A stretch of DNA of 38,079 nt from the IMG/VR virus record IMGVR_UViG_3300045135_000751, positions 1 through 38,079 of that record; one strand, 5' to 3'. The notes beneath the pieces are model-generated. The model did not search any database. It worked only from the letters and a program-made list of their open reading frames with translations, and was not told the DNA's origin. The stretch comes from a virus. Within the stretch, counting starts at the first letter, position 1. The number at the start of each line of letters is the position of its first letter. Of this stretch, positions 8,777 to 30,425 are shown piece by piece. Both the position numbers and the translations under genes were made by a program.

Positions 8777-10162
8777 TTAGAGAATTTTTTTCATATAAAT
8801 TTCTCTGAAGTTGTCAGTGCGTGCCATCATCTCTGCACCGTCTTTTTCCCAGGTGAGTTTAAGAAGCTCATCATGGGTATACCCCACATTGTGCAGTCGA
8901 TTGTAAAGTGTAAATCCGGCAGGCGATCCATTGTACTCCTGCTTTTTTTGAACTACCCAGTCGAACACGTCAAGGTAGGTAAGACCGTCTTTACGGGTCC
9001 AGCTTCTGTGGTTATTGCCGTCTTTACGGTAGCCATACTTTTCAGCGTTAAGTGACATTTCTGAACCACTGTTAATAAACAGTGGACTCCACGCGACGTT
9101 ATGTACCTTAGCTTCTTTGGTTAAGAAGTTAAACGAGTCTTCCATTTGATCCATAGTTTCACCGGGTAATCCGCCGATCATACTGACATACACCAAGACG
9201 TCAGGATATTTCTCCCTAAATTCTAACAAACCACGCTTTACCTTTTCCGGATCCATTCCTTTACCAATAAATTTACCAGCTTCTGCATTAAAGGTTTCAA
9301 TACCGAAGAACACTGACTTCATTCCAGATTCGATCAGCATTTCTTGCGTCTCTGGTTTTGCTATCATAAGATCCAATCTAGCATACGTAGAAAATCTAAG
9401 GTCGAACGGAAGTGTCCGGTACATCTTTAATAGCGACTCGATCTTTTCTGGTGAATCGTTATAGGTATCATCAGAGAACATATATCCAGTGGTGCCGTAG
9501 TTAATATAGTTCCTCATCATCTCTTCACGAAGGAGTTCTGGCGGTTTAACAAAGTCCCAGAGCTTCTTACCATTCAAGTAATAGAAACAAAACTTACATT
9601 TAAAAATACAGCCACGAGCAACCTCAATGGGTAGATCTTCGTCTTCAAATATATGATCGTCGTCGTTGTAGAGTATTTGGGATTGGGTAAAGTCGAACTC
9701 AGGAAAAAACTTGTCTTCGCATGGTCCATGATATATCTCGATATCAGGATCATCCCGCAGAGCAGGATTCATTCTAAATCCCCCTAAGACTATTTTTAAG
9801 CCAAGACTTTTTATAAAGTTAAAAAGATCCCACTCATCCATTTGGCTCAGCGCAGTGGATGTCTGCTCATCTTTTTTTTCTGTTACTTCAGTTCTATGAC
9901 GTACTTTACCCTTTTCTCTGTCCCAGATTGAATTGTTTTCTCGGTCCAAAAGAAAAGTGGTGCTGAAACCAATCCACTCTGTTTCAGAGGTTTTATAATT
10001 AGTAATAATGGTCTTAAGTTGTTCTAAGGTATACGAATTAAAGCAATCTACGACCTTTACCTCTTGACCACGTTGTCTAAACTCGCTTGCAATTCGGTAC
10101 GCGCCTGCTGCGCGCCCGAAGCCTGGATACCCGGCCATGTCTGTGAAGATAATAGCTTTCAC
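8777..10162 (-). CDS. Radical SAM enzyme with degenerate B12-binding-like N-terminus
   Basis: This 461-residue protein starts with GTG at 10162, overlapping the upstream TGA. The radical SAM [4Fe-4S] motif is ARGCIFKCKFC, with Cys185, Cys189 and Cys192. The N-terminal 150 residues have the shape of a cobalamin-binding domain (GAYRIASEFRQRGQEVKVVD, then VLGGFRMNP) but lack the classical DxHxxG histidine, so B12 binding is doubtful. The family performs methylations and other radical chemistry on unreactive carbons, or cofactor-free variants. It ends the 15193-8777 cassette, next to sugar and lipid enzymes, so a glycan or lipid substrate is inferred. Confidence 0.9.
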   Translation of the reverse strand: MKAIIFTDMAGYPGFGRAAGAYRIASEFRQRGQEVKVVDCFNSYTLEQLKTIITNYKTSETEWIGFSTTFLLDRENNSIWDREKGKVRHRTEVTEKKDEQTSTALSQMDEWDLFNFIKSLGLKIVLGGFRMNPALRDDPDIEIYHGPCEDKFFPEFDFTQSQILYNDDDHIFEDEDLPIEVARGCIFKCKFCFYYLNGKKLWDFVKPPELLREEMMRNYINYGTTGYMFSDDTYNDSPEKIESLLKMYRTLPFDLRFSTYARLDLMIAKPETQEMLIESGMKSVFFGIETFNAEAGKFIGKGMDPEKVKRGLLEFREKYPDVLVYVSMIGGLPGETMDQMEDSFNFLTKEAKVHNVAWSPLFINSGSEMSLNAEKYGYRKDGNNHRSWTRKDGLTYLDVFDWVVQKKQEYNGSPAGFTLYNRLHNVGYTHDELLKLTWEKDGAEMMARTDNFREIYMKKIL

Positions 10163-10989
10163 TTAAATTTTACTTTCTGTTCTGTTTCGCGCGCGTCTAG
10201 TTCGTACTCTGATCGGTAAGTGTTATTAGATCTAACAACCTCATTTAGAATAGTAAGGACGTCTGGGGCATAGTCTAGAATAGCAGCAGTATCTTTCGGG
10301 AAGCAGCTACCTCCAAACCCTTTCTTACCGTCGGGACCAGGCACTTTCATATGAGAATGACCGATACGAGGATCTGATCCAATGCTATTGGCTACGATAT
10401 TATATCGAGCGCCAAGACTGTCGGTCAGGTCTTTCCATTGATTAAACCATGCTACCTTCATAGCAAGAAAAGAGTTAATGCCGTACTTAACTAGACTCGC
10501 TTCCTCTACTGTCATATAGTGGTATGGAGCAGGATTACAGTTGGATCCGAACTGATATAAGTTCTTTACTTTCTTAGTGAACTCTGGTCGACCCCCAAGA
10601 ATGTGAAAATGTGGGTCAATAAAATCATTTAGTGCATTGCGTTCTGTAAGGAATTCTGGATTATACACAAATCGCTTATATCTGCAAAGGCGTGCTGCAA
10701 TATCGGGGGTGATTGTGGACTTGATTACAACGGTACCACAAGCAATATTCTGAAGCTGTTTTATAACTAAATCAATAGTAGTGGAATCAATACCACCGGT
10801 GTCACTCATGGGCGTGGGTACACACACGAACGTAAAGTCTGGGTAGTAATGCTCTATATCATCAATATTAGCATATCCCTGATATGGATCAATAATCATA
10901 ATATCATTTTGGGTATTTTTGAAACCAAACTCTACAGCTTTACCCACAAATCCATAACCAATAATAGCAATCTTAGTCAGTTGCTTCAT
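10159..10989 (-). CDS. Short UDP-glucose/GDP-mannose dehydrogenase-like protein
   Basis: This 276-residue protein shows an NAD-binding start, IAIIGYGFVGKA, a conserved CVPTPMSDTG turn (residues 56-65), NPEFLTERNA in the centre, and the catalytic-loop signature GFGGSCFPKD with the nucleophilic Cys. Family members oxidise UDP-glucose (or a related sugar nucleotide) to the uronic acid in two steps. They are usually 390-450 residues, so the C-terminal UDP-binding domain is missing here. Whether it keeps activity is unclear. AAGGAT precedes the ATG. It sits between an oxygenase and a radical SAM gene. Confidence 0.85.
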   Translation of the reverse strand: MKQLTKIAIIGYGFVGKAVEFGFKNTQNDIMIIDPYQGYANIDDIEHYYPDFTFVCVPTPMSDTGGIDSTTIDLVIKQLQNIACGTVVIKSTITPDIAARLCRYKRFVYNPEFLTERNALNDFIDPHFHILGGRPEFTKKVKNLYQFGSNCNPAPYHYMTVEEASLVKYGINSFLAMKVAWFNQWKDLTDSLGARYNIVANSIGSDPRIGHSHMKVPGPDGKKGFGGSCFPKDTAAILDYAPDVLTILNEVVRSNNTYRSEYELDARETEQKVKFK

Positions 10990-12957: not shown

Positions 12958-13841
12958 CCGTAAATATTTTTCCACTTTTCATGAATAACTTTAGAAATGA
13001 TTTCCTGTGCTTGTGCATTAGGATGCGCGTCTATTTCTGACACTCTATACATATCGCTTTTAGGAAATAGCTTTTTATCTTTTTGTCTCATCTCATCAAA
13101 ATATGTGCCACCGAGTGGCGCGTATATCGGCCAACCAATAAAGTGGGATTTATGTTTCTTATCAAACTTAGAGAACCAAATATTTTGCACATAGTCAATT
13201 AGTACTTGATTCTCATGTGTTTCTACGCTCTCACCTTCAGGACATTTCAGTATTCCCGTTTTTTGGAAATGTGATAGGTAGTGATAGTCAAATGGCAGTA
13301 ATCCATTTATAAACACAAATTTTATACCATTAGCTGCGCACACATCTGCGAGAGCGTTATAATTTCGAAGACTATCCTCAATGCAATATTTTATAAATCC
13401 TGTGCGCACCCTCCAGAAATCTTGGCTGGTAAAAAAGTTATATGATAGATTGTGCATTCCAAGACGAGATAGCCACTCAAATGGTGTATCTGCTCCATCA
13501 GGGTATGCAGGATTATTATCAGCTACAATGTTCACTTCCGATAGTGGATTAATATCGTATCCACACATTATACGGCGGCGATCCATACCAGTCCACATAA
13601 CTGCAACTGTATCAACTCTGTCGCCGTAAAGATAGATCTTCTCCAGTACATTGTGAAAGATAGTTTCATTAGAAGAACCGCTGGCACCAGTGTTAATCAC
13701 CTCGAGATCTAATGCATTACCCAAATGCTCCGGCCACATCTTCCAGGCACCTCGTTCCTGCGGTAAGCTTTTATCGTTCGTAAGATAGTTAGGATCTGTG
13801 TAAGAACATCCGCCAGTAATTAGTAATTTACGTCGTGCCAT
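12954..13841 (-). CDS. SGNH/GDSL-family hydrolase or acyltransferase-like protein
   Basis: This is a 295-residue protein. Block I is GGCSYTD (nucleophile Ser13 in a GxSxT context), block II is NTGASGSSNE, and the C-terminal block V is DAHPNAQAQ (Asp and His of the catalytic triad). The family hydrolyses or transfers acyl esters on sugars and lipids. It lies between a carbamoyltransferase and a desaturase, connected by a TAATG junction. A role in de-acetylation or acyl transfer on envelope glycans is inferred. Confidence 0.85.
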   Translation of the reverse strand: MARRKLLITGGCSYTDPNYLTNDKSLPQERGAWKMWPEHLGNALDLEVINTGASGSSNETIFHNVLEKIYLYGDRVDTVAVMWTGMDRRRIMCGYDINPLSEVNIVADNNPAYPDGADTPFEWLSRLGMHNLSYNFFTSQDFWRVRTGFIKYCIEDSLRNYNALADVCAANGIKFVFINGLLPFDYHYLSHFQKTGILKCPEGESVETHENQVLIDYVQNIWFSKFDKKHKSHFIGWPIYAPLGGTYFDEMRQKDKKLFPKSDMYRVSEIDAHPNAQAQEIISKVIHEKWKNIYG

Positions 13842-15193
13842 TAATAAAATACTTTCACGTTATATTTGCTTTGGAATAAATGCGCATCTTTTTCATCATT
13901 CACCATAGGCATTCCCTTAATATTAAGACTTGTATTTAGTAACATAGGAACGCCGGTTAGTTCGTAAAACTCTTCAAGAATAGGACGAATAACTGAACCA
14001 CAATCTTTTTTAACGACCTGTACGCGCGCGGTACCATCTACGTGCGTAACCGAGCTATAATCATGCTTTGCTTGTGCAACAAACTGCATATATTCGTTCA
14101 TCGGTCCTTCGAAATATTCGTCAGCATACTCTTCCAAGATTACAGGTGCAAAGGGTCGAAAGAGCTGTCTTTGCTTAATTTGATTAACGGTATTTTTAAT
14201 ATCTCTTCTAGGGTCAGCAAGCAAGCTACGATTACCAAGGGCACGAGGGCCAAACTCACTACGACCAGAAGCGACACCGCAATAGGAATAATCAACAAGA
14301 TACTGAGCAACTTCTTTAGGCGAGATTTTTCTTTGAATATCATAACCAAGATAAGGATCCTTCCATTTTAGTTTCTTTCCGAGAGATAATGCCGCAGCGC
14401 CAAGCGATGAACCAGCATCACCAGGATTTGGCATAATCCAAATATTTTTGTTTTGAATTTTACTATTAGCAGAACAGTTAAGAGCACAACCACCCATGAA
14501 TACTAAGTTGTCGTGTTTACAGTACTTATCAATAATCTTTAATAGCTCACGTTCATATAGCGCTTGTGCACTTGCGGCAAGATCTTCATTACGTGCATTC
14601 GGTAAGTAGTTACCAATACCTTTATGGTTGTTACGATAGAGCAGTTCAGACATATCATAGATAGGTTCGCCATAGGCAGCCATACCCATCAAAATATATT
14701 CATCTTCATTTGGTTTTAATCCTACGCGCTGTGTTACTGCTGAATAGAAAAGACCAAGCGAGTACGGATACTTCCAGCTCTTAACTTTTTTCATTTTCGG
14801 CGCACCATTTTCAGTTGTACCGCGCCATATAGATATAGTATCCCACTCACCAATAGAATCGATCACAAGAATATCGGCTTCATCGAATGGTGCTGTATAG
14901 AATCCCGCAGCTGCATGAGATTCATGATGATAAAATGATTCATCATATGATATATCAGATTTCTTAGGTAGTTGACCGAATAAAAATCTACGTGTATTCT
15001 TTAGCCAATTCTTTTCATAATATGCTACTTTATCATATGGCTTTAATTTATATAAAAGCAAAGGGTGAATATGTCTATCGTTCTTAATCTTCGAATATCG
15101 TTCAGAATGACTAGCATATAGAATATCACCGTCATCATTTACGAGGGTAACTGCTGCATCGTGAAATCCTTCGCTAACTCCTAATATCTTCAT
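13841..15193 (-). CDS. Carbamoyltransferase (NodU/CmcH/TobZ family)
   Basis: This is a 450-residue protein. The N-terminal HHESHAA motif (residues 89-95) is the metal/active-site signature of the family. Further along are the family's SEFGPRALGNRSLL and FRPFAPVI blocks and the C-terminal VPMLLNTSLNIKGMP motif. Relatives carbamoylate hydroxyls on Nod factors, antibiotics and glycans using carbamoyl phosphate and ATP. It is about 100 residues shorter than typical members. It is the first gene behind the 15227-15260 promoter. Cyanophages and marine phages carry similar genes. Confidence 0.93.
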   Translation of the reverse strand: MKILGVSEGFHDAAVTLVNDDGDILYASHSERYSKIKNDRHIHPLLLYKLKPYDKVAYYEKNWLKNTRRFLFGQLPKKSDISYDESFYHHESHAAAGFYTAPFDEADILVIDSIGEWDTISIWRGTTENGAPKMKKVKSWKYPYSLGLFYSAVTQRVGLKPNEDEYILMGMAAYGEPIYDMSELLYRNNHKGIGNYLPNARNEDLAASAQALYERELLKIIDKYCKHDNLVFMGGCALNCSANSKIQNKNIWIMPNPGDAGSSLGAAALSLGKKLKWKDPYLGYDIQRKISPKEVAQYLVDYSYCGVASGRSEFGPRALGNRSLLADPRRDIKNTVNQIKQRQLFRPFAPVILEEYADEYFEGPMNEYMQFVAQAKHDYSSVTHVDGTARVQVVKKDCGSVIRPILEEFYELTGVPMLLNTSLNIKGMPMVNDEKDAHLFQSKYNVKVFY

Positions 15194-20553: not shown

Positions 20554-20904
20554 TTAGAAGTTAAAACGTACACCAACCTGTGCATCTGAGTATTCTAAGT
20601 CGCCGTCAGCTTGTACAGCACCGTATACAGAAAGATTGCGAGTTACGCCGTATGCTGCTTCAACGCCTACACCATCAAAGTCGAGTTTGTTATCTGCGTC
20701 GATAGATGCATAAGCACGTGGGGCAATAGAGAAGCCTCTAAAAGCAAAGTCTGGTCCTGCTTCCATTGAGAATGTTTCGTTCTCAATGCTATATTCTGCT
20801 TCTGCTGAACCACCAAGTCCTGCCAGCACACCTTCTGCAAATACAGAAGTTGTGAGTGCGAATGTTGCGGCTGTTGCGGCTGTTGTTAAGAGGATAGTTT
20901 TCAT
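20554..20904 (-). CDS. Small outer-membrane beta-barrel-like protein
   Basis: This 116-residue protein has a signal peptide (MKTILLTTAATAATFALTTS) and alternating amphipathic beta-strands (SAEAEYSIENETFSMEAGPD, RNLSVYGAVQADGDLEYSDA), ending in an aromatic residue (VGVRFNF). A terminal Phe fits the outer-membrane assembly signal. A phage-encoded outer-membrane-like protein could alter surface receptors. It lies directly downstream of the tmRNA gene with AGGAC before the ATG. Confidence 0.75.
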   Translation of the reverse strand: MKTILLTTAATAATFALTTSVFAEGVLAGLGGSAEAEYSIENETFSMEAGPDFAFRGFSIAPRAYASIDADNKLDFDGVGVEAAYGVTRNLSVYGAVQADGDLEYSDAQVGVRFNF

Positions 20905-21028
20905 TGTTTAGTCCTATAAAATTAAAATTAAGTGGGCCCGTAGTTTATCGGGTGGAACCCATACCCTAGACGTCTTTCGTTAGTCACGGATATATTTCTG
21001 TTGCTAGGCTATATCAGACCCCGCAGCA

Positions 21029-21073
21029 TTATGCAGCTAGTGCGTAACCTGTAGGTGCGAAATTTTCATTTGC
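21029..21073 (-). other. tmRNA tag reading frame, ANENFAPTGYALAA
   Basis: Codons GCA AAT GAA AAT TTC GCA and on to TAA encode the 14-residue tag ANENFAPTGYALAA. ANENFAP is alphaproteobacterial in style; the YALAA end matches the canonical ClpXP/ClpAP signal seen in E. coli. The GCA resume codon is at 21073-21071. Confidence 0.88.
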
Positions 21074-21159
21074 ATTTAGTTTAATTGATCTATGCGCGAT
21101 CATCCGGTAAACTCCACTTTCATCTTCACACCTGTCGATCCCTTGTCATCCCCATCAAA

Positions 21160-21229
21160 ACTATACTGAGTTAATCCTTTAGCGTCTAGTATGCATCCTA
21201 GCGGATATAACGAGTTATCGCAGTATAGT
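21160..21229 (-). repeat. Inverted repeat closing the tmRNA intervening segment
   Basis: ACTATACTG (minus strand, 21229-21221) and CAGTATAGT (21168-21160) are exact complements lying just after the CCA and just before the coding piece. They would extend the acceptor stem in the precursor and hold the ends together before processing. Confidence 0.8.
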
Positions 21230-21362
21230 CGTGGTGGAGATGCCGGGAATTGAACCCGGGTCCAGTATGTGTCCACGTTGCTTCAACGTTTACAGTCTTA
21301 CTTATACCATATCTACTAGTGACTGTACATATCTAATTCCAATTCCCCTGTCAGATGTGATA

Positions 21363-21413: not shown

Positions 21414-21944
21414 CTATGATAACAAATCAAGAACTAATTCCTTATAGTCACCGTAAGAAAGATGATTATAAAGATCGTCGACGTTCTGGTACAGCTGATC
21501 AAGCGTACCATTGTTATCGATAACGAAGTCTGCCATCCAAGGTTCAAGTGACATGCTTGACTTAGGCTCTGTTTCTAAATAATCAGAACGATCCACCCAG
21601 ATAGTGAAGTCAACCAAACCATTGTTTTTAATAGCATGGAACTCACGTTTGTTACGGAGTCCACAGTAAATATCAGACACTTCAAAGATTTCACGACCAA
21701 TTCGGGCAAGATCATCTGCGCAATAGTTTGCAATCAGATCAAACCATTGGGCGCGATGGTTGTGTCTGTCATTATAGCATTCTTCGACAGACTCATAACA
21801 GTGCTGCCATTTCATTACAGGATACACTACTTTTTCAGCACAGTGCATACTAGATGATTTAAATGTCATACCATAGTCATCGCGGAGACACTCAGCAACA
21901 GTATCTTTACCGTGACGACCATGACCAATAATAAGTAATTTCAT
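21414..21944 (-). CDS. Deoxynucleoside monophosphate kinase-like P-loop protein (T4 gp1-like)
   Basis: This 176-residue protein has a Walker A loop, GHGRHGKDT (residues 7-15), and a layout like phage dNMP kinases (T4 gene 1), which phosphorylate dTMP, dGMP and modified dCMP to diphosphates. The LID region contains FTIWVDRSDYL. The ATG overlaps the upstream stop (TAATG), with AAAGG ahead of it. It would feed nucleotide synthesis and, if the ThyA-fold enzyme makes a modified dCMP, could accept that product. Confidence 0.85.
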   Translation of the reverse strand: MKLLIIGHGRHGKDTVAECLRDDYGMTFKSSSMHCAEKVVYPVMKWQHCYESVEECYNDRHNHRAQWFDLIANYCADDLARIGREIFEVSDIYCGLRNKREFHAIKNNGLVDFTIWVDRSDYLETEPKSSMSLEPWMADFVIDNNGTLDQLYQNVDDLYNHLSYGDYKELVLDLLS

Positions 21945-22477: not shown

Positions 22478-22687
22478 TTAATATAATTTTTTTATACCGA
22501 GTGCCCAATTCTCTGCAGCATCCTCGACATATCGAATAGATTTATTAGGGAAGTCTTCAGTAAAGAACTTTTTACCGTGATCGTCGAAATAATCGACGTA
22601 TGCCAGTTCTTCCTTAAAGTCCATCATAACGTTACAGTGACCTCGTCCTGGGGGATCGGCATAATACGTAGAAATCTTCTTAGTCAT
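22478..22687 (-). CDS. Small protein, unknown function
   Basis: This 69-residue, acidic, aromatic-rich protein (MTKKISTYYADPPGRGHCNV) overlaps the end of thyX. No known family. It is the last gene before the hydrolase promoter. Confidence 0.7.
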   Translation of the reverse strand: MTKKISTYYADPPGRGHCNVMMDFKEELAYVDYFDDHGKKFFTEDFPNKSIRYVEDAAENWALGIKKLY

Positions 22688-23369
22688 TCACAAACTCCTC
22701 TACCATTGGAAAAATCTTAGAAATAGCTTGAGCTACAGCACGAGCAACTTCGATATGCTCTTGTTGTGTACCATTAGCCGAACGAAGCTCAATATAATGT
22801 ACCCAAGAACGAAGTGTGCCATTCATGTAGACTTTACTTACCGTATTACCTTCTGGCAGAACACAACGTGCTTGTTCCTTAGCAATACCATTCATAATTG
22901 CCCACTTATATGTAAGTTGAGCTTCATGGATAATTTGGGTCTGTTTCATTGCCCAAGCTTTTTGTAATTCAAGATCCGCACAAACAATGCTATTCTGACG
23001 ATTCTTAGGATCTTGCATACGTGCTTCCCTTAGAACAAAGGACTCTTCTAGATCATTCGGATCGGCGTATCGCTGGCTGAATTCCTGGAAGTAGAAGCTT
23101 CTATGTCGAAGAATTTGTCGAGCAATATCCCGGGTTGTGTCGATACCGATTGTTGCGTTGCACATTTCAAGTGGAGACCAGTGTTTGTGCTTGACGAGGT
23201 ATCGGACGAGCTTTTCTCCTGTTTCGTTGTTGAACTGGTTAGCTGGGTTAGATACTCGAGCACAGTAGGCAATAAGTTCAAGCGCATCATTGAAATGTTC
23301 TTTGAACTCTTCTGATGGTGCGGGTTGCACCACCAGAAATGCATTCGGTTCAGAATACTTATAGCTCAT
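22680..23369 (-). CDS. thyX: Flavin-dependent thymidylate synthase
   Basis: This 229-residue protein carries the ThyX signature RHRSFYFQEFSQRY at residues 88-101 (RHRxxSxxxxSxR type). It makes dTMP from dUMP using FAD and methylenetetrahydrofolate. ATG overlaps the upstream TGA (ATGA). With dCMP deaminase (27922-28368) it would supply thymidine; a separate ThyA-fold enzyme is encoded at 29685-30425. Confidence 0.96.
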   Translation of the reverse strand: MSYKYSEPNAFLVVQPAPSEEFKEHFNDALELIAYCARVSNPANQFNNETGEKLVRYLVKHKHWSPLEMCNATIGIDTTRDIARQILRHRSFYFQEFSQRYADPNDLEESFVLREARMQDPKNRQNSIVCADLELQKAWAMKQTQIIHEAQLTYKWAIMNGIAKEQARCVLPEGNTVSKVYMNGTLRSWVHYIELRSANGTQQEHIEVARAVAQAISKIFPMVEEFVND

Positions 23370-29684: not shown

Positions 29685-30425
29685 TTATTCTCCTATTAAC
29701 TGTCCGAGTGCCCAACGATCATTCTCAAAGCAATGTAAGCTAGTACTACTGAAATGTAAATACCCAACTTCAGCATCAATGCCACTTTTATCAATCATCC
29801 ACTGTGTCAGACGATTAGCGAAGTATAGATCGTTATGTAGGTGTCGTACGACGTCGCACGAGCGCATGTGATACGAACAGTGGAGTTGACCGCCACGTTC
29901 CATAAAGTGCCAGCCAAACGAGCACGGTACACGTTCACCTTGATTAGCTGCTACGATATCTTCGGGAAACCACATAGGCACATAGCACTGACGAGTCGTA
30001 GGATCTTTTTTGAGTAGTTCTACAGCATCACCAAGGTTACCGGTCTTAAAACGAATGCCATCCATACTTGGTGCCCACATACGTTCTGGATACGAGTGTG
30101 AGAATGCCTTTTGGTTCTCAGACATATACTTTTCTGTATCTTTTAGCCACATAGTATGTGATGGTGGCGGATTGAGAGGTTTCCCACCAGTACGTTCGTC
30201 GAAGTGTACGTCTGCCCACGGTTGTGACGCACCAAGCTCATCGCTTGCTTGCTGTGTGTCGGTATACATCGGTGCTACTAAGTCTGCGTGTAGAATCTCA
30301 AGAAATACAGGTGGAGCTGTAGTTCCTTGCCATGAACCAGTCTGTAGGTTATACCCTTGGTGGTACAGCGTGTGTCGTAGTTTCTTCAGACCTTCTGCTA
30401 ATGTTCGACCTGCGACTCTGTTCAT
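29685..30425 (-). CDS. ThyA-fold enzyme, probable dCMP/dUMP hydroxymethylase or related
   Basis: This 246-residue protein shows the ThyA fold: an N-terminal VAGRTLAEGLKKLRHTL, the TTRQCYVPMWFP block, the catalytic Cys168 in RVPCSFGWHF (Ser where TS has His), and RSCD at 188-191. By ungapped alignment the residue equivalent to TS Asn177 is Asp199. In T4 gp42 dCMP hydroxymethylase this position is Asp, so dCMP is the likely substrate. A TS-type Y in the HxY motif is replaced (TSLHCFEN). A ThyX is also present, so this one is not needed for dTMP. Overlap with the upstream gene is 77 bp. Confidence 0.85.
   Translation of the reverse strand: MNRVAGRTLAEGLKKLRHTLYHQGYNLQTGSWQGTTAPPVFLEILHADLVAPMYTDTQQASDELGASQPWADVHFDERTGGKPLNPPPSHTMWLKDTEKYMSENQKAFSHSYPERMWAPSMDGIRFKTGNLGDAVELLKKDPTTRQCYVPMWFPEDIVAANQGERVPCSFGWHFMERGGQLHCSYHMRSCDVVRHLHNDLYFANRLTQWMIDKSGIDAEVGYLHFSSTSLHCFENDRWALGQLIGE

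Follow-up and report, generated by a model that had tools for sequence, protein, structure and literature searches.

Genome context and anatomy of the locus

The window analyzed here (the whole 38,079-nt stretch of IMG/VR record IMGVR_UViG_3300045135_000751) is a virus fragment that carries a complete, circularly permuted (two-piece), alpha-type tmRNA gene on its minus strand, set among consecutive lytic-type phage genes that share its orientation (Table 1). The 38-kb fragment encodes UvsX, a gp41/DnaB-type helicase and an RNA ligase/tail-fibre attachment gene, together with a ThyX-like gene, an endolysin and a deoxynucleoside monophosphate (dNMP) kinase-like gene, and the nearest relative of both the helicase and UvsX is phage C48C1, of the family Kyanoviridae (68 % and 78 %, respectively). 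The original prediction of a T4-like phage is supported by these T4-type core replication genes among the ~20 proteins of the fragment that were scanned; no T4-type structural genes were found in that set, and the capsid region is probably missing from the fragment. The window also contains two distinct thymidylate-synthase-type genes (22680-23369 and 29685-30425; PHROG 85, ThyX-like, and PHROG 160), and its Nol-like carbamoyltransferase, UDP-glucose dehydrogenase and cytidylyltransferase-type genes (13841-15193, 10159-10989 and 1285-2436) suggest that the phage modifies sugars or nucleotides.

Table 1. Features of the permuted tmRNA locus and its flanking genes, in window coordinates
Feature	Position	Strand	Evidence and remarks
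Permuted tmRNA (ssrA), alpha type, structural part	about 21293 to 20933	-	ARAGORN, RF04321 and RF01849, covariation in nine sequences
3′ (acceptor) piece, comprising P2 strand, T arm, the 3′ half of the acceptor and an encoded CCA	21232..21293	-	Sequence, Rfam, alignment
Acceptor stem 3′ half CATCTCC	21236..21242	-	Followed by A73 and CCA (ACCA 21235-21232)
T arm CCGGG-TTCAATT-CCCGG	21243..21259	-	Stem pairing perfect; sequence and Rfam
Internal spacer, 78 nt	21154..21231	-	Ends pair in a 10-bp stem; TTTTGAT precedes GGGG
Acceptor stem 5′ half GGGGATG, where the 5′ (mRNA-like) piece is predicted to start	21147..21153	-	Sequence, Rfam, alignment
Tag reading frame ANENFAPTGYALAA and stop TAA	21029..21073	-	ARAGORN
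Candidate sigma70-like promoter TGTACA-17-TATAAG	21301..21329	-	Read by eye; just upstream of the 3′ piece
3′ pseudoknot, type 1	20989..21022	-	Second stem GATATA/TATATC; first stem 3/4 pairs (pairing check)
Second, tandem 3′ pseudoknot, type 2	20933..20966	-	GGGT/ACCC, TGGG/CCCA
Upstream neighbour, dNMP kinase-like	21414..21944	-	PHROG 139, E 3e-14; Pfam DNMK slightly below cut-off
Downstream neighbour, 116-aa predicted secreted protein	20554..20904	-	Similar start in contig L002 from 3777

ARAGORN called a permuted tmRNA on the minus strand (21325-20938), and on the same strand the gene matched both the permuted tmRNA model of Rfam (RF04321, tmRNA_permuted; 21293-21029, 103.1 bits, E = 3.2e-19) and the full length, positions 1-355, of the alpha_tmRNA model (RF01849; 21340-20987, 86.5 bits, E = 2.9e-22), exceeding the respective gathering scores of 47 and 50 bits. 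Alpha_tmRNA was the sole older subtype model reported for the gene in the Rfam scan. The reading of the locus as a circularly permuted, alpha-type tmRNA, for which the original prediction had named ARAGORN and covariance models as the check, is thus borne out by both approaches and by the acceptor stem and T arm. The span of 20932-21356 put forward at that point does contain the tmRNA, but the structural RNA occupies only part of it (Table 1), and the remainder includes the promoter region.

On the minus strand, the acceptor piece precedes the 5′ piece, with CCA ending at 21232 and GGGG starting at 21153. The P2 strand GTAAAC begins at 21293 and its partner GTTTAC lies after the acceptor 5′ half. 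The acceptor halves pair at all seven positions, including a G3-U70 wobble, which is the alanine specificity determinant for alanyl-tRNA synthetase (AlaRS). The tag frame opens with the resume codon GCA (Ala) at 21073, has a hydrophobic end and closes with a TAA ending at 21029.

The downstream neighbour returned no Pfam or PHROG match. The same order of kinase-like gene, tmRNA and secreted protein, plus one extra intervening stretch, is found in contig L002, and in contigs L003, L004 and L008 the tmRNA lies shortly after the same dNMP kinase-like gene. Some contigs with a related kinase neighbour had no detectable tmRNA, and the phage tmRNA is therefore dispensable. Small predicted secreted or outer-membrane-like proteins adjoin or neighbour phage tmRNAs both in the window (20554-20904) and in contig L206 (828-1628), and a group I intron (RF00028, 104 bits) was detected in the related phage contig L008 (2006-2210).

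Covariation and conservation across phages

Both pieces of the gene were aligned for nine divergent sequences: the window, L002, L003 and L008 from IMG/VR, the bacterial-bin contigs L206 and L228, two further loci from the bin of L206 (L271 and L273), and the isolate phage Melnitz. Across 29 named pairs and 260 base-pair cells, 96.9 % of the pairs were formed, against 85.4 % in shuffles (0/500 as high); pairs compensated by changes on both sides numbered 12 against 6.3 in shuffles, and the covariation score was 0.433 against 0.188. Sliding the partner by 1-3 columns, as a control, lowered pairing to 30-46 %, and unconstrained RNAalifold recovered the same helices as the named pairs. The fold z was -2.5. 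Broken acceptor or T-arm pairing in related phages, which the original prediction had singled out as counter-evidence, was not seen in any of the nine sequences: both stems are 100 % paired and unbroken throughout, G3-U70 is invariant, acceptor pairs 5 and 6 covary, and three of the five T-arm pairs are compensated in relatives. A group of related uncultured phages has thus retained the tmRNA gene while its pairs changed in a compensatory manner.

The tag frame is likewise kept in relatives, with varying codons and mostly as xNxNFAPxGYALAA (for instance ANNNFAPKGYALAA, ANENFAPSGYALAA and ANDNFAPSGYALAA), and the phage tags form a set of their own, 14 aa long and ending in GYALAA. The tag AKPEIRLAA that ARAGORN assigned to contigs L006-L008 was set aside, its start being probably one Ala codon late; homology gives ANVNAKPEIRLAA. 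Odd tags such as GEQVEMAMAA and ASANKTAKVIAFPASASMAFAAAA occur on four viral contigs (L101, L066, L107 and L037), the permuted ones among them having short spacers.

Spacer hairpin, promoter and pseudoknots

In the window, the two ends of the spacer pair over 10 bp (21230-21221 with 21168-21159), and this stem stacks on the acceptor. Most of the phage permuted tmRNAs examined have a spacer of 57-175 nt with an end stem of 9-13 bp on the acceptor, and in most of them TTTGAT or a similar motif follows the stem just before GGGG. The sequence of the stem differs from phage to phage while its pairing is kept; it was seen in the window, L002, L003, L228, L271, L273, L266, L034, L074 and L126. Since single-sequence shuffle values vary from 0.003 to about 0.17, the support for the stem comes from its recurrence across phages. 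Some bacterial alpha tmRNAs (L178, L158 and L176) have a comparable, short-looped stem, so the phages enlarge a pre-existing element. We found no mention in the literature of a long-spacer hairpin shared by phage permuted tmRNAs, and it constitutes a testable feature of these genes.

The candidate sigma70-like promoter is suggested by positional conservation: by eye, several relatives carry TTGACA, TTTACA or TGTACA, a 17-nt spacing and TATAAA, TATATA or TATAAT at the same position before the first P2 base. A generic consensus promoter scan returned chance-level sites only and did not list TGTACA-17-TATAAG, and no terminator was found in the same scan. At the other end of the gene, the window has type 1 and type 2 pseudoknots in tandem, where the examined stretches of relatives show one; according to the pairing check, the type 2 knot is also present, with altered base pairs, in L002, L003, L008, L228 and L020.

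Origin of the gene and host of the phage

The closest tmRNAs to that of the window were those of L002 (158 bits), L228 (146 bits) and L206 (143 bits), all of them phage or phage-like contigs. Contigs L206, from a Rhodobacteraceae bin, and L228, from a Muricauda bin, were considered as host donors with near-identical tags and rejected because their gene content, judged by eye, is phage-like, with heme oxygenase and radical-SAM-type genes as well as T4-type polymerase, clamp-loader and clamp genes. At least eight permuted tmRNAs, differing in their tags, occur in the genome containing L206 (G012), at loci that include L268 and L271-L275. Given these counts and the phage-like genes, we treated L206 and L228 as mis-binned phage contigs, and most of the permuted tmRNAs in G012 apparently come from contigs of this kind. 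A single metagenome-assembled genome (MAG) can hold several phage tmRNAs, and counting tmRNAs may help to spot phage contamination in such assemblies.

Because tmRNA genes are common integration sites, the gene could be a tmRNA captured from a host or a scar left by prophage integration, without any function for the phage, and many viral contigs do bear a standard host-type tmRNA, with tags such as ANDENYALAA. We regard this origin as highly improbable for the window, given the location of the gene among same-strand lytic-type phage genes, with a neighbour that is kept in relatives, and the compensatory evolution of the tmRNA across phages. Moreover, 385 sampled alphaproteobacterial genomes, a small sample for questions of origin, were compared by similarity score: with the phage-like contigs of G012 set aside, they gave no match better than a 49-bit fragment, whereas matches to phage-type tmRNAs reached 143-158 bits, which disfavours recent capture from a sampled host. 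A whole-gene similarity search of phage records yielded a 36-nt T-arm match only, and scanning viral contigs for a T-arm pattern proved too unspecific, as it picked up standard host-type as well as permuted tmRNAs.

The host signal from protein neighbours is mixed: the dNMP kinase and the RNA ligase point mostly to roseophages and other alphaproteobacterial phages, and the neighbours of the remaining proteins are C48C1, cyanophages, Melnitz and a Limnohabitans phage. An alphaproteobacterial host, as originally predicted, is plausible but is not implied by the gene, since Melnitz, with an alpha-type tmRNA, infects OM43, and Menderavirus, with a beta-type one, infects Stenotrophomonas, both gammaproteobacterial hosts. 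The type of a permuted tmRNA is hence a poor guide to the host of a phage.

Proposed function

We consider it very likely that the gene provides the phage with a functional two-piece tmRNA, alphaproteobacterial in type, which works together with the SmpB, AlaRS and proteases of the host. A single precursor would be transcribed, probably from the gene's own sigma70-like promoter, and host tRNA-processing enzymes would excise the spacer hairpin, with RNase P cutting at GGGG and 3′ trimming proceeding to the encoded CCA. The acceptor and P2 helices would keep the acceptor and mRNA-like pieces joined, charging by host AlaRS would proceed through G3-U70, and host SmpB would bring the molecule to stalled ribosomes. 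Translation would restart at GCA and append ANENFAPTGYALAA, the LAA end of which would direct the product to host ClpXP-type proteases. During infection, the phage may benefit from ribosome recycling being maintained while mRNAs are degraded; a re-routing of ribosome rescue, as put forward in the original prediction, is likewise hypothetical. SmpB was not found in 13 phage records searched, including those of 146, 159 and 252 kb, so that host SmpB is presumably used; as the window is a fragment, an SmpB gene may still lie elsewhere in the phage.

The phage tmRNA might instead mainly alter the outcome of rescue, through different degradation via its tag and pseudoknots or through competition with the host tmRNA for SmpB. 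The phage tags differ from ANDNKAPMALAA, found on another contig of the MAG with co-binned phage-like contigs, and a tmRNA of phage DS6A comprising only the tRNA-like domain, or a similar molecule, has been reported to inhibit host tmRNA (PMC4131195, PMC11915505). The tag nevertheless keeps the LAA end and the N-terminal A-N-x-N common in alphaproteobacteria, for which ordinary degradation is expected, and its frame is complete, in contrast to DS6A. We therefore judge an altered outcome unlikely and favour conventional tagging and recycling with host factors. More tentatively, the tandem knots and 14-aa tag may mark a distinct, phage-evolved lineage of permuted tmRNAs, long apart from the bacterial ones, in which the enlarged spacer hairpin may guide or time processing. 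We hold this to be possible but doubtful; were it true, the phage might operate its own version of ribosome rescue.

Comparison with known systems

The original prediction knew of no well-described permuted tmRNA in a T4-like phage, a view contradicted by the two-piece tmRNA of T4-like phage Melnitz, published in 2022 (PMC9004378), and by the beta-type permuted tmRNA annotated in Menderavirus records. The Melnitz study reported 133 unique phage tmRNA structures, of which 53 were suggested to be two-piece, 50 of them marine or aquatic (PMC9004378). Permuted tmRNAs in T4-like phages are thus already known, and the window gene is a further good example, a clear addition, backed by structure, to the cases of phage-borne trans-translation.

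Like the window gene, Melnitz ssrA (MZ577097) is a permuted alpha-type tmRNA in a T4-like phage (RF01849, 106.7 bits; tag ANDNYVPVDYALAA), with a long spacer (142 nt) closed by a 9-bp stem and a sigma70-like promoter just upstream. Its genome neighbours differ, with a late-transcription coactivator downstream, and it overlaps a glutamine riboswitch (RF01739) that was not found in the window; its host is OM43. The ssrA of the Stenotrophomonas phages Bhz51 and IME-SM1 (Menderavirus) shares the permuted order, full tag, long spacer and a 9-bp stem, but its best subtype model is beta_tmRNA and it lies within a tRNA cluster. The alphaproteobacterial two-piece tmRNAs (RF01849, e.g. Caulobacter) share gene order, acceptor, T arm, P2 and the A-N-x-N start of the tag, as well as TTTGAT before GGGG in some cases. 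In a comparison set chosen by tag pattern, and hence not a fair sample, bacterial spacers were mostly 10-44 nt long with a short stem or none, a minority reaching 102-188 nt without a strong stem, and bacterial tags were mostly 12 aa long, in contrast with the long-stemmed spacers and 14-aa tags of the phage genes.
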